Under the pieces are notes generated by a model, which worked only from the letters and a program-made list of their open reading frames with translations, had not been told where the DNA came from and ran no database searches. DNA of 64,000 bases from Liolophura sinensis (taxonomy: Eukaryota > Mollusca > Polyplacophora > Chitonida > Chitonidae): positions 14,761,570 through 14,825,569 of the forward strand of contig NC_088300.1 in assembly GCF_032854445.1 (NCBI RefSeq). Direction: 5' to 3'. A program made the translations under genes and the position numbers. Numbering within the stretch: the first letter of the stretch is position 1; every line of letters begins with the position of its first letter. This document shows positions 16,501-62,112 of the stretch, in pieces.

Positions 16501-19500
16501 TGGCACATGAAATTGAGACAAGATGTTCATGCTTATTTTATGATTGCTGACGTTCTCACTTTCTCACTGTCTAACCTAACAGAAGATCACAGCATATCAG
16601 AGGCGTAGCATGGATCTTCACCGGGGGAGGGGGGGGGGGTGCGGATTTGATAAGAGCGGAACGACTATCACAGTCTATTAGGCGAGGGTCCAGGGGCCGC
16701 CTAGGGCCCGGAAGCTCCGGGTTATTAGATTGCCGGAGAGAGAATCTGAGTGATTTCGACGTGTTTCAAATGCAGATTTTGCCATTGTGTACACATTCAT
16801 TTTCACATTAGGTGGGGTTGAAAACAGGCTGTCCCTGAATATATAGTATTTATTATCATGGGTTCCAGGGTTACAAACAGTACAAGTAAAACTGCGGCAT
16901 CTGTCTTGTCCGCCAAACGGAAATGGCTTCTGCTGCCTGCACGGCACGATTCAAGAGAGGTAGTTCTGTAAAACACGCCGTCTTTCACTAGGAACAATAT
17001 GGAATGGTTCACATAACAGAACATTTCTAAATAGGCCTATATACTATTTCGTAAATTGGTACGAAATTGAAATACTGGCCAATATAGGCTACAGCAAATA
17101 TCTGTGGAATGAATGTTAATAGCTAGGTAAGAAATATAGGCTTAAATGTTTTTTCGTCGACTTGAACGAAACATTTTTTGCCTCGCATCCGCACCCCCCG
17201 TAACCCCACCCCCACCCCCCACACACACTCATCAGCCTACGCCCCTGCATAATAAACTGTGAATTAAAGAAGGTTTCTTCAAAGCGCTGTCTTTGGCAGC
17301 GAAATGGTTTATTGAAGAACGTCTAACGAAATGACCTGTAAAATGTGTTATAAATGTCACTTTCGTTTTTATCATTTAACTTGTAATTTTGAAGACGTCA
17401 TTTCCAGCTTAAGTTTCGCGTTGGTATTGTGTCTTTCTATTGTATTAATCATGTACTCAAGCAATTGTAACAAATAACTTTGATGCCACTTTTCAGCCAG
17501 TCATTCCCAACTCAAGCTGGAGAAGACAAGGTTTTGGCTTATCTGCCATTTTACCACGCTTACGGGCTGATTGTAAAGATCCTGAACTGCCTAAATGGAG
17601 GATTGTCAATGTCCATTGTCCCCAGGTTTGACGAGTCTTTCCTCCAGACGATGTCGCAAGAAAGAGTAAATATATCTCTCTATATAATCGTGTGTTATAA
17701 ATTCATTCTTATAACTTTATTCTTATAAATTTCAAAATTCTTATAAATTTTATTACTCTGATAAATTTTATTATTCTTATAAATATTTTCTTATAAATTT
17801 ATTTCATGGTAAATAATCGCTTTAAATCAAATCGGATGTTTTTATGCGAGTCATGAACCACTCGTGACTATTACTACCCTGGTACTGTTCGGTCACGTAA
17901 CCAACTACAGAATCGTAAACGTGACCACGCTTCAAATAATTACATATTCGAATCTACGTATAGTGATACGTATCTGTTTATAGCAAAACCACTCATGAAA
18001 TGACGTAAATTTCAAATAATACATGTATGTAAAGCATAAAACAAAGCGTATGTGCTACATTTGAAATAAAAGATTCACCAAATGTTAAGTTCTTCTATTT
18101 CCGTCATATATTATTCGTATAATTGATTATTAGAACTTATGGGTATGAAGAAAACATAATAATATTTTAGGTCGAAATGCTTTTTGCGTCAAACATAATA
18201 TGCTTAGTACATTTCAGTTTTACGTATAGGTCTGTTAGCAAGTTCCCAAACAAATGTCTGATAATTTACCATTGTTTAGATCACAATTCTGCACCTAGTG
18301 CCGCCGGTTTGTGTGTTCATGCTAAAGCACCCGGACATCCGTCAATACGACTTGTCTGCGATACGAGCCGCTTTATGTGGGGCCGCGCCCATTGGAGGGG
18401 ACCAGGTGGCTGAATTCAGAGAGAGATTCGGTATAGAAGACTTTATCCAAGGTTAGTTAGACAGTATAGCACAAATAGCGACGAAGACCCCGTACATTGT
18501 AGTGACAAAGCTTTTTTCGAAACTTCTTTTTCCATTTCCAAGGCTAGTTAGGCGAGTTAAATCTTCAGTCGGTGCAAGACAAAACGAAGTCCGTCTGCTG
18601 TTAGATAATTCTGCCTGGACCCTGGTTACCTCTCCTGCTGAAACAGCCTAAAAAATTCTGGTACATCTTGTGCTGGTTACCGCCATTGCTTAACCGAAGC
18701 TGTTTCATTGGCTGAGATATTCTCTAGGCAGAGGCCACAAATTCAAAATTGCAACCACTAGCGACTGTATGCTTGAGAACTCTCCTTTCAGAAGCATTAT
18801 TATCCTTTGACAGAACCTGTGCTAAGCATAGTCCCTCTGGCTTTCGCAGTCAGGGAACCCCTTCTAAGTTTGACACATGTGACGGATATGTACGTAAGAA
18901 AAGTAGTTCAGGTAGTTTTTCTTTCTTCACATGGGGAAGGATTTCGAAAGTGAGAAGATTTTCCTTGTCCCCTTGGCGTTACACCAGTGGCATTGTTATC
19001 CAAATGACACACCTTCAAACAAACCACATTTTCTTGGCTACTGTTAGTCTCGCAAAGGTCAGCACAATTTTGGTTACGTATTGTCATGCCATCCATGCCT
19101 TGGTTACTATTGTAATTTAAAATTAAAAGAGAAAAATCTCAACATACACCAATTACGAATGGTCATACAGTTATACCGCAAAGTCACACAGACTATACAC
19201 ACTCCGTGTAAACAAAGAGCAAGTGATTCCGAACAAACGAGATCGATGATCTCACGTTGTTGCATGTTGAGTTTTTCCCCTTGAACGGTTATATCTCGAG
19301 GTAACGTGGGATTTGCAGGCTAGTGAGTCTATCTTATGTAATACGGCGTGACAGAATGTCAACAATACATGATGCTGTTGCCACAGGTAAGGCTTACATG
19401 ACCAAGTGTGTGACAGATAAAATCCATAACTGATGAAGCCTATAATAACCATTATTAGAATCTAAGACGTACAGCACAGCGAGTAAGACCAGAGCACCGA

Positions 19501-26312: not shown

Positions 26313-27217
26313 TTTGAAAATGTGTGATATTATTCGCTGTATTGTGCAAATAAAAATATATTAAAACTATATTGTACTGTTTGCGTATACTAGCTGTCAA
26401 CTGATGGCGTTAAACTGTAAATGAATAAAATGTCGACTGTCACCTTGTCATGATATGGGAGGCCTATTAGCAGAGTGAAGAACAAAGGGGAACTCGTATC
26501 CTTTATAAAGCGTTGTCAGCTTTATAGAATAATAACGTTTACGAAGTATTGAGCGCGACCAATCAGATCAAGTACCGAAAATAAGTTTTAATCCCAATAC
26601 TTACGTTCTATAATACTTTACCAATTGTGTGACAAAGTTACACATTATTTTATCAATGGTCGGAAGTTACCAGGGCTGGATAGCTGTTTTCTCTGGTCAC
26701 CAAATCCGATCTTTTCCAACTGCCCCCTTCAGCCCTTTAAGGTAGTCCGAAGTAAAGGGAAGGATGGGTGGGTGTGTCCCTCACTACCTCTGACGGGTAC
26801 CCAAGTCCTACTGAAGAGCCACAAAGAAGGACTGGATACAACCAACAGGGCGAACGGCATGTCCCCGCATAAAACACTCCAAACTCACACTAAGGGAATC
26901 AAACCGTGGCAAAGGAAAAGCCGTAAGCTCAATTACATGTTTTACAGCCATCCAGACAGCATGTAAAGCACAACTTCAAGTCACTGGAATCTTGGCCTCA
27001 TAGGACTAGCCGTGTTAATAGATTCGTACTGGCTGTCACCATGTCATCATTTGACAAGTCTGATTACGGTCAGTCATTAATTCAACATTCCAGAAAGGAT
27101 AAAAAAATATATAAATATATTTTTATCTGATGGACACAGGATATATTTTGTTCCTTAACATTAAAACATGAATGGAAAACCAGTAGCTGGCTGAGGCCCG
27201 TCTCACAACGCCATTTT

Positions 27218-27474
27218 GTTCATTTATTTATTTGATTGGCGTTTTACGCCGTACTCAAGAATATTTCACTTATATGACGGCGGCCAGCATTATGGTGGGA
27301 GGAAACCGGCCAGCGCCCACGGCAAACCGACGACCATCCGCAGGATGCTGCCAGACCTTCCCACTTACCGCCGGAGAGGAAGCCAGCATGAACTGGACTT
27401 GAACTCACAGCGGCCGCATTGAGAGACTCATGGGTCATTACGCTGCGCTAGCGTGCTAACCAATTGCGCCCCCA
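27218..27474 (-). repeat. SINE family 1, full length
   Basis: Complete reverse copy: tail TTTATTTATTTGATTGGCGT, core CGGCGGCCAGCATTATGGTG, body, B-box-like GGACTTGAACTCAC and A-box side GCTAGCGTGCTAACCAATTG. A good reference copy of the family in this window. Confidence 0.9.
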
Positions 27475-33398: not shown

Positions 33399-36300
33399 AT
33401 GGCGTCCAGCCTCCAAAGTGTCCGGCGACTCGGTACTCGAATTCTTCCCAAAAATTCCTCCCCTCTAGAGAAGCACGTCATGAAAAGAAGCTTTTCACGT
33501 GGGGTTTCCTTGTGTCGGGCTGCCAGGTTGATAACCAGCGATAACCATGTCCACAGCCCCTGTGAGCCCATGTTGGTCCCCCGGGTATCCTTGGGGCAGC
33601 ACCTTATGGGATGTTTGGAGAAGTACAAGGATTTAGAGGCTCTGGTAAGTCGGCGATGCCTTACGAAGCTCACTGAAGGACTTTCATGTATGTTATTATG
33701 GGTATTTATTGAAATTTGCGCTCTGAGGCAAACTGACGAATATTACCCCGTTTGCACGGCCAAAGTTAAGCGTGTTCAACTTGCGAAAGTGGCTTTGGGC
33801 TAGTTGGATGTCGCTCGTGTGAACGCAAAGTGGGGGCATTTAATCCGGTTTATTTGCCCCAGCTAGTGACGTGGCTTTAAGCCATTTTCAGGGCTTCAGC
33901 GGGTTTATCTGTGCCGTGTGAACGGTAACTGGATCAAATGTCCCAGGTACATGGAGATCAGGATGACGTCGTAATTACTAAACCGGCTTAAATATGAACA
34001 TGTTAACGGGTAAATCCCTGAACTGGTTTAAAACCAGCTTGGTCATATGGTCGTGTGAATGCACGCATTTTTACAATTGGATTCTATCTAAACCAGTTCA
34101 AATTTGATCCTGTTTAAATTTTGGCCGTGTGAACGGGGTATACTTCACTTATACGCTGTCGGTCAGTTGTAGAAGTGGAGGAAAACGCCGCAGCGCAACA
34201 GGTACCAAACAAGTTCCCTCACATAAGGCCATAGCCGAGTGCAGCGAAATCTTTAATTAAATCTTATTTATTACTCTCTTCGTTAAACATACACATAGCT
34301 TTCATGTTGCTATAATATACTTGTTGCCATGAAAGTTTACCCAGAATATTTAACATCGTTAAGATTTGCCTCAGGTTTGTAAAATTGTACGTTGTTCGAT
34401 AAATGTACAGGAAATGCACAAAATATGCAACTGGCGAGTGGTCGGCGGTAACTGTTTGACCCAGTAAATAAGTGGTGACCATCAGCGTATGTCAGCGATC
34501 ATCATGACGTTGGCATTTTTTGTAGAAGAATCACGGGACACATGCATCCATCGTTTTATATGAGACGAAAATGTTTCTATTGCGGTGAACACTGTTGAAT
34601 ATATGGATATGATTTCCAACACTAAATTAAACCTACACACGTGAAGCTACTTGATTGCATAATATTTAAAGGGTATCTTGCCCCACTTATAACAATGTTA
34701 TCAATGCAGACGAAAACGGCTGTCCAACATTACATCATACCGTCTTTAAATTAAACATTACGCACACCATGTATGCGAAGACACATCGCATAACATGACA
34801 TCTTCTATATGAAACACATAACATAACACCATCTGTATATGCAACATCATACTGGAGCATCTATACATATATCATCCACATTATAAGACATGTATAAGAC
34901 GCATTAATATACCTCACCCGTAGCCGAGGTGGTTAGCGTGCCAGCGCGGCGTAATGACCCAGGAGCCTCTCAGCAATGCGGTCGCTGTGAGTGCAAAATC
35001 AGCTCGTGCTGGTCATGCGTGAGAAGTTCCTCCCCCCCCCCCCCCATAATGCTGGTCGCCGTCGTATAAGTGAAATATTCTTAAGTACGGAGTAAAGCAC
35101 TAATGAAATAAATAAATAAATACAAAACACATCACATTTTGGTACAAGGTATCGTTTTTGGATTCATTAAATATTTGGTGTTTTACGCCGTACTCGAAAA
35201 TATTTCACTTATATGACGACGACAAGAGTTATTATAGGTGAAACGGGGCAGGGCCCGAGAAAACCCAAGGCCATCCGATTGGTTTGCTGGCAGACCTTCC
35301 ATCGTATTACCGGAAAGGCACACCAAATATGGACATTTTTCGTCTATGGTGCTTCTGTACTATAAATATCAGCTTACAGTGCGGGAAATAATAAGTTTCG
35401 TACTGCTATCGTACCCTTGTACCTACATCATGCCGTTCTTCCATACAGGTGGACATCCCAACGGAAAGACGCATGTCGTTTTCACAGCTGCGTGACGCTG
35501 TCATCCGGGTCACCAGCGCTCTCAACAAACTGGGCATCAAGAAAGGAGAAGTCGTGTCATTGTGCTCTCTGAACTGTCTGGAGTATGTTGTGTTGTGTGT
35601 GGCTGTGCTCAATGTCGGTGCAGTTGTCTCCCCTATTAACCCAGCATCAACACCAGGTAATGTTACCTACTTTGGCACTTAGAATGATCAATTCTGAGAA
35701 AATTAAGGGTATGATGAGTGTCAGTGTGCAACGGAATACAGTATTTGAGTTGAGACGTAATTAAGCATGCATTCTTCAGCCAGGGAACCTGCAAATAGTT
35801 GTAGGTTTCCCCAGGGCATTTTCCAGGTTCCTCCCGCTGTCGTAAAAGTTAAATATTCTTATATACGGCGTAAAACACCAATCAAGTAAATAAATAAATT
35901 AACAAATTCAGTAATGTAAGTGCATATTAAACTAAAGTATAACAAAAACTTCACTTTCCATTGTCAGAAAGTGGCGTTAAGCCATAATTAATCATTCTTT
36001 CCCTTCCCATTTTAGAGGACATTGCCAGACAGATGAAGATCTGCGGTGCTGTTGCCATGGTATCAGGACCACAATTCATTCCCATGGTTAATGCTGGTCT
36101 TTCAAATAACACGAATGTAAAGGTACAACTATCCAGTTTATGCATGTATAGCATTGCATTTACATTATCTTTTTTATATGTGACAAGTGAAACAAAGACA
36201 TTTTCTTTTCCTTAAATTTCTCAGGAAATGACGTTTTCTGGGTTGAAATATTGCACCGTTATTTATGATAAAATGTTCCAAAAAGTAGATTTGTAATGAT

Positions 36301-39300
36301 TTGTGACAGTAGGTTTTTGGGACACGTTAGCCGCTTAACCATCTCTTTGAAGTTTTGTCCGATAACAAACCGGTGTAATTCGTCCAACTAGTTTGCATTG
36401 GACCATTACCATTTACTGAATTACTGAATGTATTTAAGCCATTGTGGGTAAACGAAATGCAGTCAGTTATTTCCGCTTCACTAGTTTCGTGTGAGCTTTC
36501 TTTGGGGTTTTGTGGGTTTATGAAATTGCTTCACCATGACCACAAACCACCCACCCAATCCCCCCTCACCCCTCACCCCCCACCCCCGGACCTTGGCGTT
36601 CTTTTCAAACAAAGGACAGGAACATTCCTCATTTATACATATTTCAGACAAAGATCGTGCTTGGCTCCTCTGACGGCTGGCTTCCCTTCTCAAGTCTGAT
36701 GGAGGACGACGGTCAGGCCTTCTCTCAACCCCAGGATGTCGATCCCGAGAAGGATCTAGCCTTCCTCCCTTACTCCAGCGGAACCACTGGCTTTCCCAAA
36801 TCTGTGATGCTAACACATGCCAATGTGCTCACCAATTTGATTCAATTTGCGTAAGTTAGTATTCTACGATTGTTTTAAGTGACGTGGATTAGGCGTGTTA
36901 CTGATGAACAATCCATTGTTTTATGTTGGGTGAATAAAATATATATTAAGGTAGTTTTAAATAGAAGAACTAACTGGATGAACAGAAACCTTAATATTAC
37001 TTTAAACCCAAGAAATCCGTCGGACTTCATTACTTAAGAAATGGTTGTACAAAGTTGTGGAATTAAATTTCCACGTTTATTTTCTGCCATTACATACTCA
37101 TTCTTGTACCTCAATGAACATGAAATTTCTGTGTACAGACAAGTGTTTCCGCCGGAAGCTGGAGTTGACCGGGTGCTTGGCTACCTCCCCTTCTTCCATG
37201 CCTACGGACTGAACGGTAAAATTCTGTACACCTTGAATGGCGGAACCTCGTTGACGATCATACCTAAATTTGACGAAAATTTTCTCCAGACCATGCACAA
37301 AGAAAAGGTAAGGCGAAACCATAGCTTGCTATTTCAGTTCTTCGTGGTGAAGTTTAAAACTCTAATTGTAAGCCTCAAACTGACATTCGTAGCCCTACAC
37401 AAAGGATAACCCTCAGAATCGATCATCACCAGACATACGACCTTCGTAATTATTTACACTATAGTTGCCATTGAAAATACAATTACTTAAAAGTCATGTC
37501 ATTTGTTTATGAAATATATCTGCACAGCCTTTCTATGTCCGTTGTAGATCACAATCCTTCATCCAGTACCGCCTGTCTGTGTGTATATGATGAAACACCT
37601 GTCTGTTGTTGATCACAATCCTTCATCCAGTACTGCCTGTCCGTGTGTATATGATCAAACACCTGTCTGTTGTAGATCACAATCCTTCATCCAGTACCGC
37701 CTGTCTGTGTGTATATGATGAAACATCTGTCTGTTGTAGATCACAGTCCTTCATCCAGTACTGCCTGTCTGTGTGTATATGATCAAACACCTGTCTGTTG
37801 TAGATCACAATTCTTCATCCAGTACCGCCTGTCTGTGTGTATATGATCAAACAACTGTCTGTTGTACATCACAATCCTTCATCCAGTACCGCCTGTCTGT
37901 GTATATATGATCAAACATCTGTCTGTTGTAGATCACAATCCTTCACCCAGTACCGCCTGTCTGTGTGTATATGATCAAACACCTGTCTGTTGTAGATCAC
38001 AATCCTTCATCCAGTACTGCCTGTCTGTGTGTATATGATCAAACACCTGTCTGTTGTAGATCACAATCCTTCATCCAGTACTGCCTGTCTGTGTGTATAT
38101 GATCAAACATCTGTCTGTTGTAGATCACAATCCTTTATGCAGTACAGCCTGTCTGTGTATATATGATCAAACACCTGTCTGTTGTAGATCACAATCCTTT
38201 ATGCAGTGCCGCCTGTCTGTGTGTATATGATCAAACACCTGTCTGTTGTAGATCACAATCCTTCATCCAATACTGCCTGTCTGTGTATATGATCAAACAC
38301 CTGTCTGTTGTACATCACAATCCTTCATCCAGTACCGCCTGTCTGTGTATATATAATCAAACACCTGTCTGTTGTAGATCACAATCCTTCATCCAGTACC
38401 GCCTGTCTGTGTGTATATAATCAAACACCTGTCTGTTGTAGATCACAATTCTTCATCCAGTACCGCCTGTCTGTGTGTATATGATCAAACACCTCTCTGT
38501 TGTAGATCACAATCCTTCATCCAGTACCGCCTGTCTATGAGTATCTGATGAAACACCTGTCTGTTGTAGATCACAATTCTTCATCCAGTACTGCCTGTCT
38601 GTGTGTATATGATCAAACACCTGTCTGTTGTGGATCACAATCCTTCATGCAGTACTGCCTGTCTGTGTGTATATGATCAAACACCTGTCTGTTGTAGATC
38701 ACAATCCTTCATCCAATACTGCCTGTCTGTGTATATGATCAAACACCTGTCTGTTGTAGATCACAATCCTTCATCCAGTACTGCCTGTCTGTGTGTATAT
38801 AATCAAACACCTGTCTGTTGTAGATCATCCAGCACTGCCTGTCTGTGTATATGATCAAACAACTGTCTGTTGTATATCACACTCCTTCATCCAGTACTGC
38901 CTGTCTGTGTGTATATGATCAAACACCTCTCTGTTGTAGATCACAATCCTTCATCCAGTACCGCCTGTCTATGAGTATCTGATGAAACACCTCTCTGTTG
39001 TAGATCACAATCCTTCATCTTGTACCGCCTGTCTGTGTTTATATGATTAAAAACCCGAGCATCAAGAAGCATGGCTTACCATTCGTGAAGCGGGTTGTAT
39101 CTGCGGCAGCTTCTCTGACCAAGGACACCATCCTGGAGTTCGAGAAGGTCACCGGTCTCACTGAGCTCGGACAAGGTCATTTGTTACAACACTTTTTAAA
39201 AGAATGTTAACTTAATACACATCAGAGAATATGTCTGACACTGCTTTTTTTCAAATATGCATTAAAATATTTGTTTACGATCTTTCCTACAACAATATTT

Positions 39301-42300
39301 CAGTTCCTAATAACAGGCCATTTTAAGCAAGCTTTATCAAGTGGTCATATTAACATACATATGAGGCCATGGCCGACAAAATGTGGAAACAGACAATAAA
39401 ATCAATTTTCTCTGGGGTAAATTGGGTTACACACAGGCTACACTGCTACACTGTACACTGCACTACACTGGCCCAACTGATATAATAACTCTCCAAAATT
39501 TCCCACCAATCAGATATAAGCCGTTACGGTTTTATGACAATTCAAGCTATTTTAAAAATTGCTTTATACACTAGAGTACAAACTGGAAAAGACGAGATCT
39601 TACGTAGGCTATACTTTTCTTAAAACTCCATATCTTGTATTCTTACTGGGTTGTAAACTCTTTCAGGGTGTTCAATTTGTGTACACACTGGAGTATTTCG
39701 GTAAATTTTAACATTTTATAAATAGTAGTATCATTATCCCATATATGATACTCCAATGTTCTGTAACAGGATATGGACTGACAGAAACATCCCCTGTTGT
39801 CACGTTTGATGCTCCTCCCACAAACTACGGCTCAACTGGACAGCTTGTTTTTGATACCACTATCAAGGTAGTTAATCTGAATACTAGTTTGTTCCAATTG
39901 AAATCTGTGTTCAGTGAGAAAACCTATAACGCGTGTGTTAAACCATATATGTTTTACTTACAGTGATACAATTGATGTTTTGTTTAATTGGTGTTTTACC
40001 TTGTAGTCAGGAATATTTCCCTTTATACAACAGCATTCAGGTTTGTATGTGGAGAATAAAAAAGTATAGAGAGTAAAATCAGATCAGGGACGGCAGTGTG
40101 ATAATCATATGAAACTAGTGAAATACGACCTCTTATCAAATCATCTCTTTTAGGGTTTTATTCTAACTCCTCATGTAAATGCTTAAATAGTAGCAAATTA
40201 CATATTCTCTAGGAGCATGATTAGGTAAGAAAATATGCAGAAAATACTATTGCAATGTATTAGACGTCGCAGGTGTAGAAAAACGGACATAGCCTGGAAG
40301 AAACAACCGCATGTGGCCAGATACATTTACCTTACAAATCTCCTAATACACAAGGAGTGTAATTCCGAATGATTGCCAGCAGTTGAACCAGCTTGAGCCG
40401 ACTTCGATCACTTGACGCCATTAAGCACGGGCTAGTGGTTGGAAATCAGACGGTATAGGTTAACCGGAAAGGGGTCCATAGAGGTCATTATCCTCATGAA
40501 CCGGTATGGATGATGACTATGGGCTATTCGACAATGGCTTCAATTCAGTAGTAGTGATGACATAAAGTACATTATAAAACACACATATATTTTGACGTTT
40601 TAACCTAAAGAAACAGTTGGTATCCATGTTATTTTCTGGTATTTATGTGAACATAAAATATCAATTCGTACCTTTCTTTTTCCTTGGCTGGAAATCGTCA
40701 TCTACTGTATATTAGTCCGGCAAAATGGCGAAAGTTATAGCTGCTACTTTGATATGAGAGGCTCTCAGATAGAGAGCAAATATCAGGCCCCACGAGCCAG
40801 CCCAGTGATTTTCAATCTCGCTTTCTGGGCAGTGGGATGTGCTTGGTATGCTCATATAGTTTTAAACTTCAACGCCATTCTCAGTTGAGAATCATTTGGC
40901 AAGTTGTTCTTCATGTTCTTCTTATGACTATCATGTTGTTCCGTCCCCACAGGTAATAGACCTGAAGACAGGCGAATGTCTCAGTGCGGGACAAGACGGA
41001 GAAATTTGTGTTAAGGGACCGCAAGTCATGGCCGGTTACTATGGCAACCCTGCGGCTACGGCCGACGCTTTGCGAGGTGGTTGGTTTCATACGGGTGTGT
41101 AAAAACTACATGTGTACACGCCCTCATACCACAGACATTTGTTTGTAAACCTTTCCATCAGTTTGTATTGTGAAAGTTTCACGGAGAACATGCCGTGTAT
41201 GCGTTTTAACGATTCCAATGCTGTGTACCCAATGGCGCATTTTGCCATCTTGTTGATTAAAACGATTTCGGTTAAGTCGACTTTCACCAATCACATACAG
41301 GATCAATGTTCTATTTTACTCCATACGTAAATTTGAAACTGACCTATCAATCAAAAAAAAAGCTCTTACCGTTATTGTTGTTGTTATTATTATTATTATG
41401 CTGTATTATCATCAGGTGACGTGGGCCACTACGATGAAGAAGGCTATCTGTACATCACAGATCGTGTTAAGGAGCTTATCAAGTACAAAGCTCAACAAGT
41501 AGGTTCAGTATTACCGCCAAAATATACTTTAGCGTCTTAAAACAGATTCATATTTTCGGGAGAACCGAAGCCACGGTCCTCTAAATAAAGCACAAAAACT
41601 CTGACTGGTAATGTCATCATTCCTTACGCCCTGATCCCGCTCTGGTGGCAGTTTGAAGCAGTAGTAATTCGTTTGACTATAGGAGGGCATGCTATCCACC
41701 TATTTACAGTTTTTGTTGTCACCTCCAGTCACATGACTGAAGAGTGTGCTGAAGATTGGCTCAGAGCAGCTATGACATCACTGCAAAGCTGTGAATTATA
41801 CCGTGCATTAAGGAATGACAATTCGTTATATCTCATCTCAAGGACTACATTTGTTTATTTGATTGATATTCAACACAGTACTTGATAATTTCTCATTTAT
41901 ACAATGGCGGTGAGGTTTATCATTTGACGACAATGGGAGTGGCCCCAATGCCGCGGCCGAAGAACCATTGGGCCAGCGATGGATCCCTCTATCGAACATC
42001 TCTTGTATTTTGTTAGGGAGGAAGTTTCAGTTAATAAATCGCCCTCTAGTGCGCTCACTTTATGAGCTTTACTCTACACGAGAAATCGAAGATAATTTCC
42101 TCACAATGGGATCCAACTGAATAATGCAACTGTGTCAAGTCATCATTCTGTATATGCTGCAATTTAAACAAACATATCACGTATTCCCTAAAATTATTAT
42201 CTACTTTGTCTTCTTTTCGGCTAGGTTGCTCCTGCGGAGTTGGAGGGCCTGTTACTGACCCACCCCTGGGTACAAGATGCAGCTGTAATCGGTGTACCCG

Positions 42301-43985
42301 ACCCTGAGGCAGGAGAACTCCCTAGGGCGTACGTCGTCATCAAGCCAGGCGCTACCAGTGACGTCACACCCGAAGCTGTGACTAGTTTCGTTAATGGTTA
42401 GGACGGTTCTAATCTTATGGTAGTCATATCCTAAACCTGTCGTAACTAAAAATTAATTTTGAGTCTATAGGCTTATGAAACTGCTGTTAACATTTAACAA
42501 GCATATCACAAAGGATTGTGGTAGATTGTACCGCAGCTACTGTAAACATAACAGCCATATTTGTGGATTGGGTGCTGAGTTTATTTTTTTATGACACCTT
42601 GGGTAGCATATGAACTTACATCAAATTGAAGGACCCAATAGACAACCTTTGCGGCCGAAAGTAATTCGGGACTTATCTTTGAAGTCTGTTTCTGCTTTAC
42701 GATGGCAATTTGTGGACAAATAAGTAACGTAGTACTCGCTGACAAACATGTAACGTAGTACTCGCTGATAAACATGTAACATAGTACTCGCTGACCAACA
42801 TGTAACGTAGTACTCATTGACAAACATGTAACGAAGTACTCGCTGACAAACATGCAACGTAGTACTGGCTGACCAACAAGTAACGTAGTATTCGCTGACA
42901 AACATTTACGTAGTACTCGCTGACAAACATGTAACGTAGTACTCGCTGATCAACAAATAACGTAGTACTCGCTGACAAACATGTTACGTAGTACTCGCTG
43001 ACAAACATTAACGTAGTACTCCTTGACAAACAAGTAACGTAATACTCGCTGACAAACATGTAGCGTAATACTCGCTGACAAACAAGTAACGTAATACTCG
43101 CTGACAAACATGTAGCGTAGTACTCGTTGACAAACAAGTAACGAGTCACTATTGCGGCGGAAAGAGACCCCATTATTTTTTCCACATGTCTGACAATGTA
43201 CGGAAGCTGCCGTGAACATTGGCATTTTTTCTTAAAGTAAAAGAAAGCTAAAATATGAAATAGGGTTCATCATACAGACAACTGAAAACTATGTGTAAAA
43301 ATACTTTCATTTATTTTTTTAGTATTTTTTAAGAGTGTAGAAAGGCATTCAAATATTTGAATTCTGTGGTGGGCTTTATGAGTTATACTGATGGTATTTA
43401 GGAACTCTGAGGTCACATCACCTTTTACGCTTATGTTCACCAGAAGGAAGGAATTTTTGAGAACATTACTTCAGTAATCTTTTAATCATGGAGTTAAAGA
43501 GTTATTACAACATTCAGTGTCATGAAAGTTGTGAAAACTTCCTGTAACGTCAGAGTTCCTAAACTCTGACAGTATGGTCTATTAAAGCCCACCTTAGAAT
43601 TCAGAAGCTTAAATGGCTTTAACTCTCTTCACAGAAATCATTCAAAAAAGTAATAAATGAAAGTATGTTTATGCATAGTTTTAAGTTATCTGTGTGATGA
43701 ACCTTACTTCATATTTTAGGTATCTGTTACTTTAACATCACACCTACCTTTCTGGGTAGCACAAGAAGGACATTTATTAATCTCTCGTGTGAAAGTGCAA
43801 TATAGAAGTCAATTATATATCACCTCATAAAGCATCTGACGCGTTGGACATCATTTTTTTCTTTGTTCACAGGAAAAGTGGCCTCCTATAAAAAGCTTCG
43901 TGGTGGCGTTCATTTCATCAAGCAGATTCCCAAGTCACCTTCGGGAAAGATTTTGAAGAGAGAATTGCGAGAATCTCGCAGCTGA
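33399..43985 (+). CDS. ACS-B: 4CL/luciferase-like acyl-CoA synthetase
   Basis: Eleven coding exons: 33399-33644, 35449-35656, 36016-36122, 36648-36850, 37139-37307, 39004-39175, 39770-39867, 40953-41094, 41416-41498, 42225-42396, 43873-43985, joining to 570 codons. Intron phases and exons 2-10 lengths equal those of ACS-A. ANL motifs: P-loop [12 protein letters not shown] (Ser replaces the usual Gly near its end), [27 protein letters not shown], and [11 protein letters not shown] with the catalytic lysine. Start: first in-frame ATG, good context (AACATGG), after a TATA box. The N-terminus [18 protein letters not shown] looks like a mitochondrial presequence. The C-terminus ESRS carries no peroxisomal signal. 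Oddity: the distal part of exon 6 is strongly diverged, and the usual GAAP-type motif reads SAAASLTK. Expected to form acyl- or aryl-CoA; the substrate is unknown. Confidence 0.9.
33745..34139. mobile_element. MITE-like element, 395 bp (ACS-B intron 1)
   Basis: Left end ACCCCGTTTGCACGGCCAAA and right end TTTGGCCGTGTGAACGGGGT (one extra T in the right arm) form imperfect terminal inverted repeats. The interior also has TTTAAACCGG/CCAGTTTAAA-type inverted pieces. No transposase frame is present, so it would be non-autonomous. The flanks suggest a short TA/ATA duplication, but this is not certain. Confidence 0.7.
34914..35124 (+). repeat. SINE family 1, near full length (ACS-B intron 1)
   Basis: Begins in the tRNA-like head (GTAGCCGAGGTGGTTAGCGTG) and continues with GCGGTCGCTGTGAGTGCAAA, a C run of about 14 replacing part of the core, TAATGCTGGTCGCCGTCGTA and the (AATA)n tail. 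Confidence 0.88.
35168..35325 (-). repeat. SINE family 1, 3' half
   Basis: Reverse copy: TTGGTGTTTTACGCCGTACT, ATATTTCACTTATATGACGA, then a diverged core and body. It ends about 120 bases before ACS-B exon 2. Confidence 0.75.
35780..35902 (+). repeat. SINE family 1, 3' half (ACS-B intron 2)
   Basis: GTAGGTTTCCCCAGGGCATT, CCTCCCGCTGTCGTAAAAGT, ACGGCGTAAAACACCAATCAAG and a short (AAAT)n tail. It sits inside the 359-base intron 2. Confidence 0.8.
37538..39003 (+). repeat. 64-bp array of 3' splice site plus exon 6 start
   Basis: About 23 tandem copies of a 64-bp unit (spacing measured: 37548, 37612, 37676). Each unit is TCTGTTGTAG, the polypyrimidine/AG acceptor, followed by ATCACAATCCTTCATCCAGT..ACCGCCTGTCTGTGTGTATA..TGATCAAACACCTG. 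The true exon 6 (39004) opens with the same acceptor and ATCACAATCCTTCATCTTGT..ACCGCCTGTCTGTGTTTATATG. In exon frame the unit encodes [17 protein letters not shown], against [17 protein letters not shown] in the real exon. Most copies keep the TAG; a few have lost it (TTG, TAC, TGG). The unit is 1 mod 3, so including several copies as exon would shift frame and meet a stop within about three units. No donor-like GTAAGT occurs in the unit. Confidence 0.95.
39975..40040 (-). repeat. SINE family 1, 3' end fragment
   Basis: TTTAATTGGTGTTTTACCTTG, AGGAATATTTCCCTTTATAC. Diverged reverse copy in ACS-B intron 7. Confidence 0.6.
40075..40270 (-). repeat. dispersed element X, copy 6 (ACS-B intron 7)
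   Basis: Reverse order: GGCAGTGTGATAATC, GTGAAATACGACCTCTTATC, TTTAGGGTTTTATTCTAACTC, ATGTAAATGCTTAAATAGTA, ending TAGACGTC. The monomer region is reduced to a remnant. Confidence 0.65.
40371..40560 (+). repeat. possible 5S-rRNA-like SINE fragment
   Basis: TTCGATCACTTGACGCCATTAAGCAC..GGGCTAGTGGTTGGAAATCA..GACGGTATAGG resembles the internal promoter half of 5S rRNA (CCGATCAC..TTAAGCA..GGTTAGTACTTGGATGGGTGACCG). A non-5S body then continues. Too diverged and too short to be a working 5S gene. It could be a 5S-derived SINE relic in ACS-B intron 7, or chance similarity. Confidence 0.3.
42712..43142. repeat. 26-bp minisatellite (ACS-B intron 10)
   Basis: About 16 copies of GTAACGTAGTACTCGCTGAC..AAACAT with small variants (CAAGTAACG, CATGTAACG, a few one-base deletions). 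Minus-strand frames read through as repeats of [11 protein letters not shown] type. No spacers of unique sequence are present, so it is not a CRISPR-like structure. Confidence 0.93.
43248..43719. mobile_element. foldback/MITE-like element with ~185-bp arms
   Basis: The left arm begins CTAAAATATGAAATAGGGTT and continues CATCATACAGACAACTGAAA. The reverse complement of the right end reads CTAAAATATGAAGTAAGGTT then CATCACACAGATAACTTAAA. Similarity continues inward through ATACTTTCATTTATT, GAATTCTGTGGTGGGCTTTA and TTTAGGAACTCTGA (right-arm versions GAATTCTAAGGTGGGCTTTA, TTTAGGAACTCTGA). About 100 unpaired bases lie in the middle. No ORF. It lies in ACS-B intron 10, just after the 26-bp array and about 150 bases before exon 11. 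No target duplication was identified. Confidence 0.8.
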
Positions 43986-45161: not shown

Positions 45162-48100
45162 TCAGGATTCTCTCAAGACCCGCCGGAGAATTTTACCACT
45201 TGCTGATTTGGGAATCTCGTGGATAAATCTTACTCCGCCCCTCAGTTGCTTGTAGGCCGATACACGTTCTGAAAACAATAGCACCTGAAGTTTATTACTG
45301 GAAACTGACCTTTTACACCCGAGGAAAAAGTTCAAAACTGGCCTTCGGGCATTCATCGTGATCGCGAGCCGCCATTGAGCCCAAAATGTCCATCACATTA
45401 ATGTAGCTTCAGAGAGTCACGGCAGTCACTCACCTTTTACAAAATTCGTTATATCCTCCTCTGTGGGTGATACCCCCGTCCACGGTTACCACGAACGCCC
45501 TTGGCACCTCCCCAGCCTCTTCGTCCGGTACCCCAATCACCGCGGCGTCTCGTACACCCGGATGTGTCTGTAAGATGGCCTCTAATTGGGCAGGAGCTAC
45601 CTATAACAAGATCCAACCGAAGACATCTGAGGAGTAACCATATATTAGGTGAAACTACGTTATGTGCGTGAAACCTTGAATGATAATTTATTACGCCCTT
45701 GTGAAGAATATTTCACTTATATGACGGCGGCCGGCATTATGGTGGGAGCTGAATGTGTAAAAGTATATCTATTTTAATGACAGTTATCATTAAACATTGC
45801 CTTGTGCACCGTTTTGTACAAACTATGCAAGCATTTGGTAGACATCAGTGTATTGCAAACAAACAGATATGTAAGTCTGAGTTCATGCCAAGGTGCAGTT
45901 GCTTAGGATAATCCAACATAATGAAAGATCAAAATATCTATCTTCCCACAAGATTATACTTTACCTGGAAAGCTTTGTACTTGATTAGTTCTTTGAGTCG
46001 GTCATGAATGAAGAAATAACCATCGCTGTTGTAATATCCAATATCACCTGCAACAATCAGAAATATAAGATATAAAGTTTAAAACAAAACAACAGAACAA
46101 AGAAAGCAATCAAATAATCTGAAGCTTATAGATGCACTTTACAGTTTGCCATGTTAACAAAGTTGTTTGTTCGTGAGATAAATGTATCATATCCACAGTA
46201 ATACTATTGCCATATACAACGAGACTGATTCAGTGCTATTATTTGTATGTTAAATATGAAGCTTAGGGATTTACATTATTTAAAAATTCACTGTGCTACA
46301 TGTATATCCTGTCTACCTGTCCGTAGCCAGCCTTGTGACAGAGAGTCGTTGGTAGCCTGTGGGTTTCCGTAATACCCGGCCATCACCTGAGGACCCTGCA
46401 GGCAGATCTCTCCTTTCTCCCCGGCACCTAATACCCTACCGTCAGACACATCCACAATCTGCATGAGCCAAAACCACGAGATATTAAACTAGTCCAAAGA
46501 AATTATTTATAAAGGGACCATTTTGGCAAAAAAAAATTGATAGCAATGCATCCATTCTCAAATGTTGAACACGTATATACTACACTGCACAATGCAGCTG
46601 TGGCACAGTGAAATTTGCAGATAGCAACCTTGGTATTATACTGTGCTTGGCACAACATATAAAGATGAACAGGCTTAGAACTGATGGGTCTCGTGTCAGT
46701 AGTCCCATAATGTGAATGTTTGGTATGTCGTGTCTGGTGTCATCGGCATGGCGTTCCAGTGAGGCAGCACCAAAACTTAGTCGGCAATGGTTCTGGCCTG
46801 CTACAAGGAGACACTGTCGTGTCTCACTAATTTGAATGCATCTTTAAATAAGGTTAAGGTGACCTCTGACCTCTATGGTGGTACTGAAAGTTTTATGTAC
46901 GCCGTGGATCACCTATCAAATAGATATATAATATGTATAGGTGAGGACATTTTAAACCATTCCAAGGTTACCACACCAAGGTTAAGGTGACCTGTGACCT
47001 CTATGGTGGTACTGAAAGTTTTATGTAGACTGTAGATCCCCTATCAGATAGATATATAATATGTACAGGTGAGGACATTTTAAGCCATTCTTCACCAATG
47101 AGGTCGCTGTGAGCTCATCCAGCTCATGCTGGCTTCCTCTCCGGCCGTAAGTGGGAAGGTCTGTCAGCAACCTGTGGATGGTCGTTGGTTTTCCCCGGGC
47201 TCTGCCCGGCTTCCTCCCACCATAATGCTGGCGGCCGTCGTATAAGTGAAATATTCTTGAGTACGGCGTAAAACACTAATCAAATAAATAAACAAATTAA
47301 TAAATTTAAACCATTCTTTGGTAGTTTTAAGAGAAATTACCAGCTGTACAAGCATTTTACTTTTTTGGTTAACATTTAATTTCACTATTTTAGGTAGTAT
47401 TTTACAATTATGAATATATCGAGGATGTTCAAACTGTTATTTTCGCGGTTGATTTTATAGGGCATATCCATACACTTATTGATAGGCTGCCCAGAATCTA
47501 CCGATTGAGGTAGACATCCGGGTTTGTAAGACGATTGATTCACTGAATGATTCATAGCTTTGTTTCATTGTACCCCTTTGTAATCAGGGTATTATACTAT
47601 TTTGTGAGTAATATTGAAGTATATAAGAATCAATATGTAACCCGATGGATTTATTAATCGCTCTATATTAAACGTGGTAATATTTAGCAACATTGGCATT
47701 GTTAACGGGTGTAGGAGTGGTGTACCTAGTTACTGCCCTTACACACCTGCTGTTGTAAAACACCAGGACACGTTCCAGAACTCGGTTAATGACACATAGT
47801 CTGCACTTTGATCTCACAGGTACGGTAAGGTAGCTCATAACGGTCAGGTGAAGACAGAGATATCGAGCAGCACTTCAGTCACACGTGGATAAGTAAATAT
47901 TTAAGATAACAGAAAGCGGTCACGAGCGTAACAACAACACAATCGCGTAAAACGACAGTATACATACATAGTTGTAAAGATAGCAGGGTAGTGTGGTTTT
48001 GTAAATGCTTGCTATGCCATAGTGTACGTATTAGTTATATAGGAATTTAGCTGCTTACAATTAATTTAGATAAAGTCTTGTTCAAATTCATGTTACCGAT

Positions 48101-51100
48101 CATGACTGCCACTGTTTTATGACATAATGTAGAAAACCGGCAATTCTCCCATACATGTCACAACAATAAACACTCCCTCCTAATCCGACAAGTTACAGGA
48201 CCACATTGCACCAGCCTGGTCTAAAGCAAACATAACACTGCAAATCGATATCATGTGTAAGGCTCCTAAAGTTACTGACATGCCACTGTTAATTTAGATG
48301 TCCATGACAAACGCCCACCTAACATTCCATTACACACACTAAAAAAAAGGTTTTTCGGTTATAAACATATTTCTTTTACAGTTAAGAACGCGCCCTGGTG
48401 TTTATTCATAAAAAAATATGTTTAGTAATTAAACAAGAGATACGATTATTATATTAAACATATGAAATGTTTGCTAGTAATGCAGTGAATATTCAATAAA
48501 CACAAACAGACCAGTAAACATGACTGTATTAAGAGTAACGTACCGATAAACACGTGGAAATGTTTATATGTCAGTAGATGCCACATGGTTACATGTACGT
48601 ACATGACTGTATACGTGTTACAAGTTTACTCTGGTAAATACTCCTAGCCCAGCCGTAAGATCACAAAGCTGTCTTAGGATTAGATCACACTTAGTCTTAA
48701 CTTCAGAACAACGTGCTGCGCTAAACATGTAACTTACCTAAAGAATTTAAGTATTTTAATACTTAAACTCCTCTTGGGCGTTTATGATTTAAGTTTTAAT
48801 CTAAGTTCAGGCATAAGTTAAGTTTGATTTAAATCTAAGTCCGTTTAAAGACCTTGGGGCCAGCCCGATTACAGGGGTCGTCACTAGTTTATTTTACTAC
48901 CCTTCTCCTGGTCTGGTGAGGTGAGCGTACAGTTACTTCCTGGGTCGTCGCTAGTTCACGACTAGTGTACTCCTAGCATTCTGCAACCATTCAACCTGCC
49001 TCTCTTCTGTGGACAGAGGCTTGAGAACTTTGGAGAATGATATATTGATGGTGGTGTGGGAGTCCTATTTTGACATAGTGACTAGCAGGATAATGGCATA
49101 AGAACTTTAGAGAATGATGTGATGATAAGGATGTTGGGAGTCCTATTTTGACCCAGTGACTAGCAGTATAGTGGCATTAGAGCTTTGGAGAAGGATGTCA
49201 TGATGGAAGTGTTTGAGTCCCATTTTGACCTAGTGACCGACAGGATACTGTCAAGAGAACTATGGAGGCTGATGTGATGATGGCAGTGTTGGAGTCCCTT
49301 TTCTGAATCAGTAACTAGCAGGTTACTGCCATGAGAACTTTGGAAAATGATGTAATGCTGGGGGTGTGTGGAGTCCGGATATTGGGCATAATAAAGGGCC
49401 GTATTTTGATGCCCCATTATCCTATGTTCAAACACTTTCAAACTTTTGACATTCAAATGGCATGGTTTTGTTAACATACTGACCAATTTTCAGGGTCATA
49501 ACTTGAGTAGTCTGTACACAGGTTTAAAATGAAAACATAGCCTAAAAAATGCACGTTCCGGTGACCCACATTGCACCACCTGTCAGGCGTCATGAGGCAC
49601 CTGTGTGACACGCGTCAATCAAGTGTCGTCTGGAAAAATTGTCTGGCTCTAGAGTCAGTGAAACCTTTCTGCCAGATAGACACAAGTTTCGCTGAATCAA
49701 GATGGTTTTCTCCGCGGCGGACAAGGAATTGATCACCTTTTCAAGTAAAACAAGGTAGAACATCATTTTGAAATGTCCGGAACATGCGTTTTTGACTCTA
49801 TTTTGATTTTGGTCACATGAACAGAAATCTTAAACGATGAAATTGAAATTTGGTCTGTATACTTAGGACATAATGGCTTTTGAGTGTGAAATTTTTTAGA
49901 AGCTGACGTAAGAGGGTTTCGGAGATATTGAATGTCGGCCCATTTTTTTATGCCCACCCAAAATACTGCCATGAGAACTTTGGAGACTGATGTGACCATG
50001 TGATTGGGTGTCTTGTTTCTTCACCTAATGAAGATTATCATTACCAAGATGAATGATCTGAATGAAGCCTTGTGTACCTTAGCTCTTGTGTTTGGAAGTA
50101 GGCGGCCAACAGAGCCAGAGAGCGCTGGCTTGCAATCCAAAATAGCGATCGGACATTCGGTCATTCCGTAACCTGAAACCACGATAAGTATGAAATAACA
50201 CCTGGACACGGGCGTTATAAATACATAAAATCCTCCTTATTTAGCTTGACTTTTATTCTATGCTGTTACAATTTTTATTTTGTTTTATTCCACTAAAAGT
50301 AAAGTTTATTGTTTTCAGTACTTGTTTTTTTTTTGTGGGCTGTGTCGAAGTTCCCAGCTTGAGCAATGAGATAGTGATGAGATCACCTTAACAGTTCCAG
50401 AGATCTGTACTGAACGCTTGTGTGACCAACTCGAACTAATCCTTGAGTTCTGCTCAGAGATGTGCTTACCTAGTATTGTGTTTTGGAAGCCAGTGGCTGA
50501 CTGGAACTAATACAGGTCTGTGCTGAGGTGTGCTTAACTTGAATTGTTTTCTGTATGCCAGTGGCACACTGAAGCCTTTACATGAGGTCTGCACTGAGAT
50601 GTACTTACCTTGAATGGTGTTCTGGGTGCCAGTGGCGGGCTGAGACTGCTGCAGGAGCTCTGTATTGAGGTGTGCTTACCTTGTATGGTGTTTTTGATTC
50701 AGGTGGCTGACTGGAACTGTTACAGGAGGCCTGTACTGAGGTGTTATTATACTGAATGGCGTTACGAATGCCACTGACTGACTGGAACTGTTACAGGAGG
50801 CTTTCATTAAATGGTGTTATGGATGCCACTGGCTAACTGGAACTGTTACAGGAGGCCTGTACTGAGGTGTGCTGACACTGAATGGCGTTATGAATGCCAC
50901 TGATTGACTGGAACTGTTACAGGAGGCTTTTACTAAATGGTGTTATGGATACCACTGGCTAACTGGAACTGTTACAGGAGGCCTGTACTGAGGTGTGCTT
51001 ACAATGAATGGTGTTATGGATGCCACTGACTGACTGGAACTGTTACAGGAGGCCTGTACTGAAGTGTGCTTTTACTAAATGGTGTTATGGATGCCACTGT

Positions 51101-54100
51101 CTGGCTGGAACTGTTACAGGAAGCCTGTACTGAGGTGTGCTTACAGTGCAAGGTGTTCTGAATGCCACTGGCTAACTGGAACTGTTACAGGAGGCCTGTA
51201 CTGAGGTGTGCTTACAATGAATGGTGTTATGGATGCCACTGTCTGGCTGGAACTGTTGCAAGAGGCCTGTACTGAAGTGTGCTTTACTAAATGGTGTTAT
51301 GGATGCCACTGGCTAACTGGTACTGTTACAGAAGGCCTGTACTGAGGTGTGCTTACACTGAATGGTATTATGGATTCCAGTGTCTGACTGGAACTGTTAC
51401 AGGAGGCTTTCACTAAAGGCTGTTATGGATGCCACTGGCTAACTGGAACTGTTTCTGGAGGCCTGTACTGAGGTGTGCTTACCTTGTATGGTGTTCTGGA
51501 TACCAGTGGCAGACTGGAACTGTTCCAAGAGGTCAGCGCTGAGGGCTGCTGCTCCAGACACCGCCACCCTTACGCTCGACAGGTCAGTTTGCTGGGCTAA
51601 AGGATGTTTGGAAAGGAACATGCAGACTGGGGGCACTAGGTTCAGGATGGAAATCTGCAAACCACAGATAACCAGGGTGGAATATTTTAATAAATGTGAA
51701 CTGTGTTCTAGTCGCTCTGTATATCATTTTGGAAACAGTCTTCAAAAGTCGAGGTCAAGATATCATCCCGTAGTTTTCTGCTTAGTGTTTCATTTTTTTT
51801 GAGGTTCGCACGGAAGGCAACCAGCGCTTCATCCACGTACCCTTTGTTCTTCTAGCACTGACAGCATGTTCTGGTCAAAACGAGGCGTCACAACTAGGGT
51901 TACACCGGCGACGAGAGCACTCAGCGAAGTCATCAAGCCAAAGATATGGAACAGGGGGAGATAACAAAGCATCCGGTCCTCAGGCACGGAAGGGAATGCC
52001 CCACTGAAAATAAACAGTACTGTTGTTTTTGGGAGGAGGCGGGGGTGGGGGGGGGTGGGGGGGGGGGGGTGATATGATGGCGATCAGTTTCCTGAGTTGA
52101 TGGACCCGAAGTGACCGGAGGAGTCCGAGGTGACCGGGGGAACTAGAGTGGCCGGGGGTTACTAGATTAGCCGAAGGAAATCGGTTCACCAGAAAAAAAA
52201 AACTGGAATCACCGAGTTAACCTGTACTGAACATAGCACACAGATGTGGACTGAAAACATTAACTTCATTTGGATAGAGCAAATCAAATACGTGTTCAGA
52301 AAAAAAGAAACAAACACGTGTCACGATTAGATTACACTTAGTTACTTTTGCATAGGTGGAAAAAGAGGATGTGCAAAAGCGCCGTACATAAACTGTTTGA
52401 TGTTGGCGCTGATAGTGCTGTGAGTTATCATGACACCTTTCGGCATGCCAGTGGTGCCGCTAGAGTAGGGGAGCAGGACGATGTCCGAGGTCGGGTCGAT
52501 GTCTACGCGGTCAGGAAAAGCGGATCCATCATCGGAGAGCAGGGAAGAGAAGGGGCAGCAACCTTCCGCCTCTCCAAACACTATCACGTCCTGAAAAAAT
52601 GCCAAGATTACCCAACTTGCAAAATGTGCCATTAAAAGCACATATGTTGTTTATATTTACTTATTAATCATTTGCTTTTTTAAGTTTACCACTACATAAT
52701 ATCAATGCAATATGTAATTGTTGTATAATTTGTGAAACAAAAGTGGACGGTATGGAACGATGTTGTCCCCTGATGAGTTACAGAGGACACAGAATGAATG
52801 ATTACGGCTTAATGCCACATCGGCAATATCTCAACCATATCGTGGCGGATGAGTGATTTCGTGTGAACATTTAGAATTGCAAACACAACAAACGCAGGGT
52901 CATTAAGGTGCCATTTATGAATATCATAGCCTCAGTGCTGTCAAACAACAATGGTATATAATTCAACTCTATATCTTCGAATGTTACACAATGCCCTTTC
53001 CAAAAAATTATATTTTCAGACAAAACCATTCTTCTGTTTACTGGTCTTACCTTTAGGTTTGGCAAAGCTTGTCGAACATTCTGTACTATGGGTGTAAACT
53101 GAGGGAAAGTGGCAATTGCTCGGGCCTTACAGTCCACCAAATGGTCACGTAAATCGTCTGTGAGGATTGCCCACAAAATGGATTAACTCTTAAGAACAGG
53201 TCAAAATGTAACAGAGAATCTACCTAATTCATTAGCATTTTAGGGTTAAGATTTTAAGTACATTGCTTTTCATAAAAATGCTTGAAATGCAAGACACGAC
53301 AGACATTCACGTGTTTTAATTCAAAATCACGTTGCCACAGTCAATATATTGAATCTCACTCTTTTCACCTATTTTTCATAATATTGCTGAATGATTTCTT
53401 CATCTTCATCCAGCAAAAGGGGCAGTGCACATGGAATGCGAAGTGAGTGAAACCCCGTCGTCATCAAACAAGAACGTACCTTGTTTGTTCTTACGAACAG
53501 CACTTACCAACAGAACACAGGGGATTGATGAAAGAGACAGTTCCACCAATGGCAATCACACCCAGGCACAGGATGACATACTCCGCGGAGTTCAGTGCAC
53601 ATATACTGATGACGTCACCTTTCTTGTAGCCTAATTTGATGAGACCACTGGCCACCATGACCATGGCATCCTTGAGATCGGAGTTGGTATACTGACGCCC
53701 AGTATCCACTTCGTACTAAAATCGGTAGGTGGAATAACAATGGAGATGTTTAGAGCAGTATAGGTAAAAAGTTGTGATAAGCAAAGCGTAAAATGAATAA
53801 TTGTCTGAAAAGCACGATAAATGCTAAACATGGCTTCAGCCTAACAGATAATCGATTCTGTTCTTTACATCTCACACACACGTTACAGGTGAAACAAATA
53901 AGGTTTCAGTCTTTCACTGAAGTCCATTCAATTCATAAGGCTAAGAACTTTTAGTCTGTTTATGTCGAACATCGCTTCAATACCGGTACATTTATTAGTT
54001 TGAAAAAATTTTATCTGTAAATCTATGTTATATAACAGTGTCAGAACTTACGATGGCCTGTGAGTTTCCCCCCCTAGTTAGCGCCTCTATCATCGTGTGC

Positions 54101-60655: not shown

Positions 60656-62112
60656 GTGGGCTGATGGCGCTTATTTGCGAACATTGACAGGGGAGGTAAC
60701 TGTGTCCTCATGTAAACAACCACTACCATCATCAAAATAACGTCCCTTTATTTCATCTGACAGATCATCGACGCCGATCAGCGAAATTTACCGTAGGTTT
60801 GCCGTTTCCAAAATCTGATTTGATTTTAACAGCTGCAGGTGTAGAAACTATTCAGTAAAATCTATTGCTCTGTGGCTGTGACAAGTTATTATCACCTCAT
60901 TGACAACATTTGGACAGTTAATTGATGTGTTCATGTCGATAACTGGACACTCACAGACCCTGTGCATGATGCAGATGGATTTGTTTTCAAACCGTAACAT
61001 ACAATCTGATACTGGCTTGCCACACAGCCAGTGGTATTTCTTTTGTATTTATTGTGCAAACAAAATAGTACAAACACGATCATTTATGTTAATCGCTGGT
61101 CAGCTCTGCAGTCATGTTTAAGTGTGAATTGTCCATGTGGTGCTACTTGCACTTTCAGTTGGGCAGATATTGCATCATCGTCAGAAACGTCAATTTCCTC
61201 ATCACAAATTTGAACTTGGCTTGTCACAGATTAGTCTAATGATCGGATTAATTCCCACCACATCAATTGCCCAAATTGTGACAGAATAATTAGTGTAAAA
61301 TTGGTATAAGTTTTCTTAATAGTATTTTGGCAGATCGAAACTCTGGACTGTCAGTTATATAATACCGGTACAGAATTATCCAGGGCTACAATAACACTTG
61401 GAATGTTATTTTACCCTCGTCGATCCCATGTCTTTAAGCTTTAGAACATGTTTGCCCAAATTGTAATGTAACTTTTCATAGAACAAATCATAGTCATTGT
61501 TGGGAAATGCTTAATGTGAATGGCAGCCCTTAGTTTGACAGTTCTATGGTTGTCATGGGTCCTTATAGACCCTATGGCTTTGAGAAGGTGGGCGATTTAT
61601 ATATATATATATATATATATATGTTTTTTTTTTTTTTGTACGTGCTAACTGAGTGAAATCTCAGATAAAGTTTGAAACAAAATCTGATTCATGCACAAGT
61701 TTTGCATATTTAACTACTTCCGTTGTTCTCATTGGATGTTGATTTCCACGCAGTATGACTCCAGATATAGTGTGATTTTTATACAGTTCTATGTACTAGT
61801 TCACAATGTGGAATCCATGCAGAAGATTTGCTTATTTAATGGGATCATTGATTCTAGTTTTTTGTAGGGTTCTGTGCTAGAACTACTTCAACTGATGTCA
61901 GAGTTTTATATTATTTCCTGGCAGGTAGATTTTATTACCCTTCAGATTACATTTTATAACCAGCTTGCATATTTAGCGTCAAATACACAAATTGTCAGAA
62001 TTGTCTTGCTTTGTTTTTCTTCAGATAGCTTTGGTGGAAAGATGATGCCGATTATGTCAGCCTAGTTTTAATATAATGGTAACCAGTTACAAATATAAGT
62101 AAAGCCAGCACC
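60656..62112. other. 5' flank of the TMEM160-like gene
   Basis: AT-rich, with a (TA)n tract at about 61600-61622 and a T run after it. No promoter motif was convincingly placed, and no other gene was seen. Confidence 0.55.

Follow-up and report, generated by a model that had tools for sequence, protein, structure and literature searches.

In the chiton Liolophura sinensis, intron 5 of ACS-B, one of a group of related genes, ends in a minisatellite whose units repeat the boundary between that intron and exon 6. Taking its parts together, we consider it very probable that this array is a mirage which arose by duplication of the boundary, that the acceptor at 39004 is the one spliced, and that the array is a tolerated by-product.

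The window, that is, the whole stretch of 64,000 nt that was analysed, has no Ns and a G+C content of 40%. For three of its genes, A (LOC135468982), B (LOC135466938) and C (LOC135468981), L. sinensis proteins are on record. All three proteins possess an AMP-binding domain together with the C-terminal domain that belongs to it; because of this domain family the genes were named acyl-CoA synthetases (ACS). For A and B, translation of the spliced models reproduces the recorded proteins exactly. In A, B and C, ten introns separate the coding exons, and the intron that precedes exon 6 lies at the identical place in the three genes. The junction between exons 5 and 6 of ACS-B is in phase 0, and its exon 5 donor reaches the top score (11.35) among the 30 donors of A, B and C. 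It should be noted that the NCBI protein record of ACS-B, called P0001 in this analysis, is a prediction, and that dN/dS between A and B is uninformative since dS is saturated (2.27). The L. sinensis genome searched consists of 632 contigs totalling 609,464,459 bp. This fits the PacBio HiFi assembly published for the species, described as having 609.5 Mb in 632 scaffolds and built from reads with a mean length of 8,347 bp at 14x coverage (PMC11068029). This assembly was initially labelled Liolophura japonica and the name has since been corrected to L. sinensis (PMC12441733). The host contig measures 82,493,220 bp in the protein database against 82,489,547 bp in the genome searched, a slight version difference. 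The coordinates of the features are collected in the table.

Table. Location and main characteristics of the ACS exons and boundary arrays; positions are those of the window unless a locus is given.
Feature	Position	Strand	Characteristics
ACS-B gene (LOC135466938)	33399..43985	+	11 coding exons, 570 aa, intact
ACS-B exon 5	37139..37307	+	donor AAAG/gtaaggcg
Old intron 5 end (TGTCCGTTGTAG)	37536..37547	+	left edge of the array; repeat not continued by the preceding sequence
ACS-B array	37548..39003	+	23 tandem units (20 x 64, 2 x 62, 1 x 52 bp); 7-unit higher-order period
Last unit of the ACS-B array	38940..39003	+	CTGAT as candidate branch point at -22, in copied coding sequence; CTCTCTG before AG
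True ACS-B exon 6	39004..39175	+	172 nt, donor CAAG/gtcatttg; fits P0001
ACS-A exon 6	18280..18451	+	acceptor position as in B; free of listed arrays; reference for old bases
ACS-C exon 6	51483..51654	-	true donor CAAG/gtaagcac
ACS-C donor-side array	50457..51532	-	16 repeats of the exon 6 end, counting the exon itself as the first; most lie 71 or 55 bp apart
ACS-D exon 2 acceptor array	L032:3468-4618 (G000:C6, ~18.007 Mb)		50-bp units, 23.2 copies by TRF; acceptor at L032:4619

Some other elements of the window deserve mention. The record of the C protein carries the label LOW QUALITY PROTEIN, and near ~45480 (minus strand) this protein matches the DNA in two blocks that are one base out of step, which suggests a one-base frame break or a base error in that exon. 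The start of an open frame of 138 codons at 62083-62496 (plus strand) resembles a mitochondrial leader, and no match to this frame was obtained with the AMP-binding proteins compared. A tRNA search with bacterial settings found none. A SINE-like repeat (GTGTTTTACGCCGTACTC...), of a type known from molluscs, is present in many copies (47024-47436, 22466-22896, 12600-12876, 27187-27447 and others), and a literature search by its sequence found no paper.

TRF placed the ACS-B array at 37536-39055, with a period of 64 and 24 copies. Cut at the acceptor, it resolves into 23 complete units, the copy number originally predicted, and exon 6 follows them at 39004 without a gap. In each unit, about 52 nt from the beginning of exon 6 are joined to the final 11-12 nt of intron 5, so that the description of the unit as intron end plus exon start, abutting the true exon, proved accurate. 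In its exon part, the unit consensus agrees with the real exon 6 at 47 of 53 positions, and single units do so at 43-47 of 53, with the exception of the deleted unit 21 (31/53). The match between units and exon 6, on which the original prediction depended, has an independent counterpart in exon 6 of paralog A, to which the array consensus aligns with 78% identity over 60 nt (E 7.8e-8). These alignments demonstrate that the array derived from exon 6 and sits between exons 5 and 6 of an intact gene. Furthermore, the proposal that a coding exon boundary was the seed is borne out, because the acceptor position and most of the residues there are common to paralogs A and C.

The units show a mean pairwise distance of 0.068. 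A first test of block duplication, which scored each gap as a mismatch, gave no significant signal (p 0.95). Of 13 sets of rare variants shared between units, 9 connect units seven apart (p 0.0016 in a permutation test across all lags); because of this pairing, the array probably grew in part through duplication of blocks of seven units.

Another aspect to consider is which of the two copies, array or exon, has changed. The comparison between them demonstrates that the array has been homogenised separately from exon 6. The earlier claim to this effect was correct but incomplete, since the exon is the derived one at three of the six positions at which it differs from the array consensus. Taking A and C as reference, the older base is found in the array at positions 18, 36 and 49 and in the exon at 17 and 53, while position 45 gives no direction. 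Judged by these bases, the array is partly a fossil of exon 6, because it keeps the older state at three of the six positions. At residue 328 the array encodes His, the usual residue of the family (23/31 aligned proteins; 80/111 scanned proteins among the matches listed, the scan having taken 111 of the 120 matches listed and nine not fitting it), and the Asn of the ACS-B exon is derived. At residue 317, before VPP, the Pro of the array appears in none of the 111 scanned proteins among the matches listed. The substitution of Pro for Leu in the array was itself confirmed, with the codon CCA in 20/23 units, GCA in 3/23 and Leu in none. Reading CCA against CTT as a variant of the array was right for the first base, which changed in the array, but not for the second, which changed in the exon.

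Of the four closest ACS paralogs, three (B, C and D) carry boundary arrays. The ACS-C array is the mirror image of that of B, as it lies on the donor side of the corresponding exon 6 of the paralog. Its copies near the exon have donor-like scores of at most 5.33, and three distal donor-like sites score 10.26, 11.73 and 8.55 compared with 10.26 for the true donor; a transcript that reads past the true donor would run into a stop after 41 nt. The fourth paralog, ACS-D, is situated ~3.2 Mb from the window (G000:C6:18003000-18019900) and can be modelled with an open frame from exon 1 almost through to its end. A search for the annotated ACS-D protein gave no Liolophura record among the 120 matches listed, and perhaps its arrays hampered the annotation of this gene, which looks intact. 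At the acceptor array of its exon 2, 22 upstream junctions were counted, 19 of them with AG; eight of these 19 outscore the true acceptor, and all 22 junctions lead to stops 39-153 nt on. A second ACS-D array (L032:9184-9595, 78 bp), which resembles the region from a few nt before to ~60 nt past the exon 8 donor (74.6% over 67 nt, E 2.3e-6), was excluded from the counts.

The repeated occurrence of such arrays could be taken as a sign that minisatellites arise preferentially at splice boundaries, through some mechanism linked to transcription or splicing. We find this rather unlikely. Of 13 arrays tested for splice edges (ten picked from the window, with a period of 22 or more and ~3 copies or more, together with three of the D locus), three span a splice edge compared with 0.44 expected under uniform placement (P 0.008, the exon edges of D being partly approximate). 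However, it was the B array that led to the choice of the window, and without B the count is 2/12 compared with ~0.40 expected (roughly P 0.06). In addition, 44 arrays with a period of at least 20 and at least 3 copies occupy 37.8 of 242.5 kb (15.6%), so some edge cases should appear by chance alone; the sample behind this density is non-random, formed by the window and 18 genome pieces of ~10 kb around AMP-binding genes or adjoining the window. Two arrays close to exon-like matches of other AMP-binding genes, one in L050 at a distance of 19 bp and one in L037 at 57 bp, were discarded as candidates, and the lack of exon text in their units also counts against a preference. A preference for splice edges is thus not established, and seeding there may be largely a matter of chance, given the high density of minisatellites in the sequences examined.

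The remaining arrays were examined for further cases. Among the ten of the window, only the B and C arrays overlap any of the 33 ACS exons, and the others were rejected as exon-derived. Those at 19465-19849 and 22231-22367 are inverted copies of one 48-bp minisatellite in two ACS-A introns, and further matches at 11024, 12483 and 21304 indicate a dispersed family. In 14 pieces of ~10 kb around other AMP-binding genes, where few exons were recognisable, no array overlapped an exon. The L050 array (279-418, minus strand) is an intronic 28-bp array of five copies with a TTTCAG acceptor-like motif before an AMP-binding exon; by its motif it is another kind of putative decoy array, one without exon text. 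Five P450 matches and their flanks showed no array of period at least 20 overlapping a match. In one of these regions (L054) an 18-bp repeat of 2.1 copies overlaps the end of the P450 match and appears to lie just past a donor.

The ACS-B array places a series of potential acceptors upstream of the true one. Decoys are present, as had been anticipated, but the estimate of some twenty was somewhat high, given that the AG is kept at 18 of the 23 upstream junctions. Using an acceptor matrix trained on the 29 other acceptors of A, B and C, the AG-bearing decoys score 5.41-8.15 compared with 5.66 at the true site, and 17 of the 18 score higher than it. By this measure the decoy acceptors are real and their predicted local strength is equal to that of the true acceptor; acceptor strength was consequently rejected as a discriminator. 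The unit length of 64 is 1 mod 3 and, in line with the original prediction, any upstream junction, whether it has AG or not, leads to a stop 96-294 nt later (23/23). The two AG columns have accumulated 5 changes in 23 units compared with ~0.9 per column in the exon part or 0.7 in the intron part, a difference that is suggestive, though not convincing, of selection against decoy AGs.

The number of decoys that keep AG, their scores and the stops that follow all of them would suit an alternative in which the decoys are used in a meaningful way, the early-ending transcripts being destroyed and the length of the array tuning the output of ACS-B. Tandem repeats at human exon-intron boundaries are also reported to lead to alternative splicing (PMC2812944). 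This alternative seems to us unlikely, more so than a preference for splice edges: the NCBI protein record of ACS-B, the sole one among the matches listed, uses 39004 and has no isoform label, few units of the array have a consensus branch point, and the amphioxus mirages are reported to leave splicing undisturbed (PMC3087553, PMC3902484). A query of 146 residues across exons 5-7 gave nine matches with 37-43% identity, none of them ACS-B, so that no transcript-derived fragment backs either splice choice.

The use of 39004 is what we infer from three properties of the region: it gives the shortest exon 6, the array holds no good donor, and the branch-point consensus is nearly unique to the last unit. 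Exon 6 measures 172 nt from the true site and 236-1628 nt from the decoys. The top donor-like score inside the array is 1.42 compared with 5.78 for the true exon 6 donor when its own sequence is in the matrix; left out of the matrix, the true donor scores 3.72, and it is among the weakest three of 30. The argument based on donors fails for ACS-D, whose array holds donor-like sites scoring up to 7.75. With regard to the branch point, CTRAY at -22 is found at only two of the 24 junctions, 38570 and 39004, and the decoy at 38570 carries a CTGAT identical to that of the true junction. In the interval -45..-16, YTNAY is present at 3/24 array junctions and in 18/29 other introns. The missing motif at the decoys is weak evidence, because 11/29 real introns also have no YTNAY in that interval; CTRAY is present in just 4/29.

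Two further explanations concern the array itself. An assembly artefact is highly improbable: although tandem repeats are often misassembled and one amphioxus mirage was aberrant in a draft assembly (PMC3087553), the HiFi reads (mean 8.3 kb) are long enough for 1.5 kb (PMC11068029), the units differ from each other and keep an internal seven-unit order, and independent arrays of like kind exist in C and D. The idea that the array came first, as a satellite inserted in the intron from which the exon start was captured, has a negligible probability, with no supporting point found and with the exon 6 start being ordinary family protein, the intron position common to A, B and C, the exon 6 acceptor boundary present in A and C without the array, and a single genome match of array plus exon at its own locus (in a search that skips common words and missed the known paralog A match).

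According to the reading that we prefer, duplication of the boundary with splicing at 39004, the founding event would have been a tandem duplication that took in ~12 nt from intron 5 together with 52 nt from exon 6, and the later growth probably included the seven-unit blocks. The spliceosome would take the copy adjacent to the exon. Since the original end of intron 5 now forms the left margin of the array, ~1.46 kb upstream, any branch point at normal spacing from 39004 must be copied coding sequence, and the one that serves exon 6 would accordingly have moved into former exon text. The array would most likely be a tolerated by-product of a minisatellite-rich genome and not a working part of the gene. 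As a broader proposal, which we put forward tentatively and with somewhat less than even confidence, exon-edge arrays in a genome rich in minisatellites may keep replacing working intron ends, in intron 5 by supplying a branch point and a pyrimidine tract from copied coding sequence in place of the original ones, while old exon text is kept. If this were true, splice signals in chitons, and perhaps generally rather than in lancelets alone, would turn over by repeat dynamics and not by point mutation.

These cases extend exon-boundary mirages beyond cephalochordates, with three of them in the four closest members of a gene family. They provide a natural test of a spliceosome choosing one among ~19 locally equivalent acceptors, and the exon fossils in the array could date the event. 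Furthermore, the proposed route from mirage to new intron becomes testable in a second phylum. In the open-licence literature searched, no boundary minisatellites were reported in chitons or other molluscs, and the excerpted text of a cone-snail paper contains no exon-boundary array.

The closest known systems are the amphioxus mirages, described as minisatellite-like tandem units across an intron-exon boundary, at the acceptor in BflGb6 and at the donor in BflGb9 (PMC3087553). There, AG or GT is kept in many but not all units, and the units are homogenised apart from the cluster edge (PMC3087553, PMC3902484); mirages are also cited for Adh3, troponin C and two further loci, and have been likened to PGBD5 (PMC3087553, PMC3902484). 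A copy number that varies among haplotypes or cells also counts as a feature of mirages. By the defining features tested, on one assembled haplotype and with predicted splicing, the B, C and D arrays fit this class. In all three, each tandem unit holds intron and exon sequence across the boundary; the splice dinucleotide is partly kept (AG 18/23 in B, 19/22 in D); either exon boundary is affected, the acceptor in B and D and the donor in C; and concerted evolution of the B array has proceeded without the gene's own copy, with six consensus differences whose direction was decided at five.

The differences are also clear. The amphioxus mirages belong to a cephalochordate and the present ones to a mollusc, and copy number is ~23 in chiton B and D compared with 3-6 in BflGb6. 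The units of 64 and 50 bp (B, D) are shorter than the 150-160 bp of the amphioxus globins, though within the 10-72 bp quoted for amphioxus Adh3. The chiton cases also stand apart from those of amphioxus in that all but one of the four closest ACS paralogs were hit, older exon bases are kept, and the branch point would lie in copied coding sequence. Human internal tandem repeats, linked to segmental duplications, are likewise minisatellites at exon-intron boundaries of recently duplicated genes; they average ~30 bp x 4 and are described as forming new introns or alternative transcripts (PMC2812944), whereas the chiton array is only intronic as annotated. Finally, in the model of Rogers (1989), as cited in PMC3087553 and PMC2812944, introns are gained via duplicated proto-splice sites. 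The starting event is alike, a duplication across a splice boundary; a new intron by splice-site duplication is ruled out here, as there is no extra intron with respect to the paralogs (ten each in A, B and C). Unlike in that model, the chiton gene gained no intron: its old one was lengthened and its end replaced.
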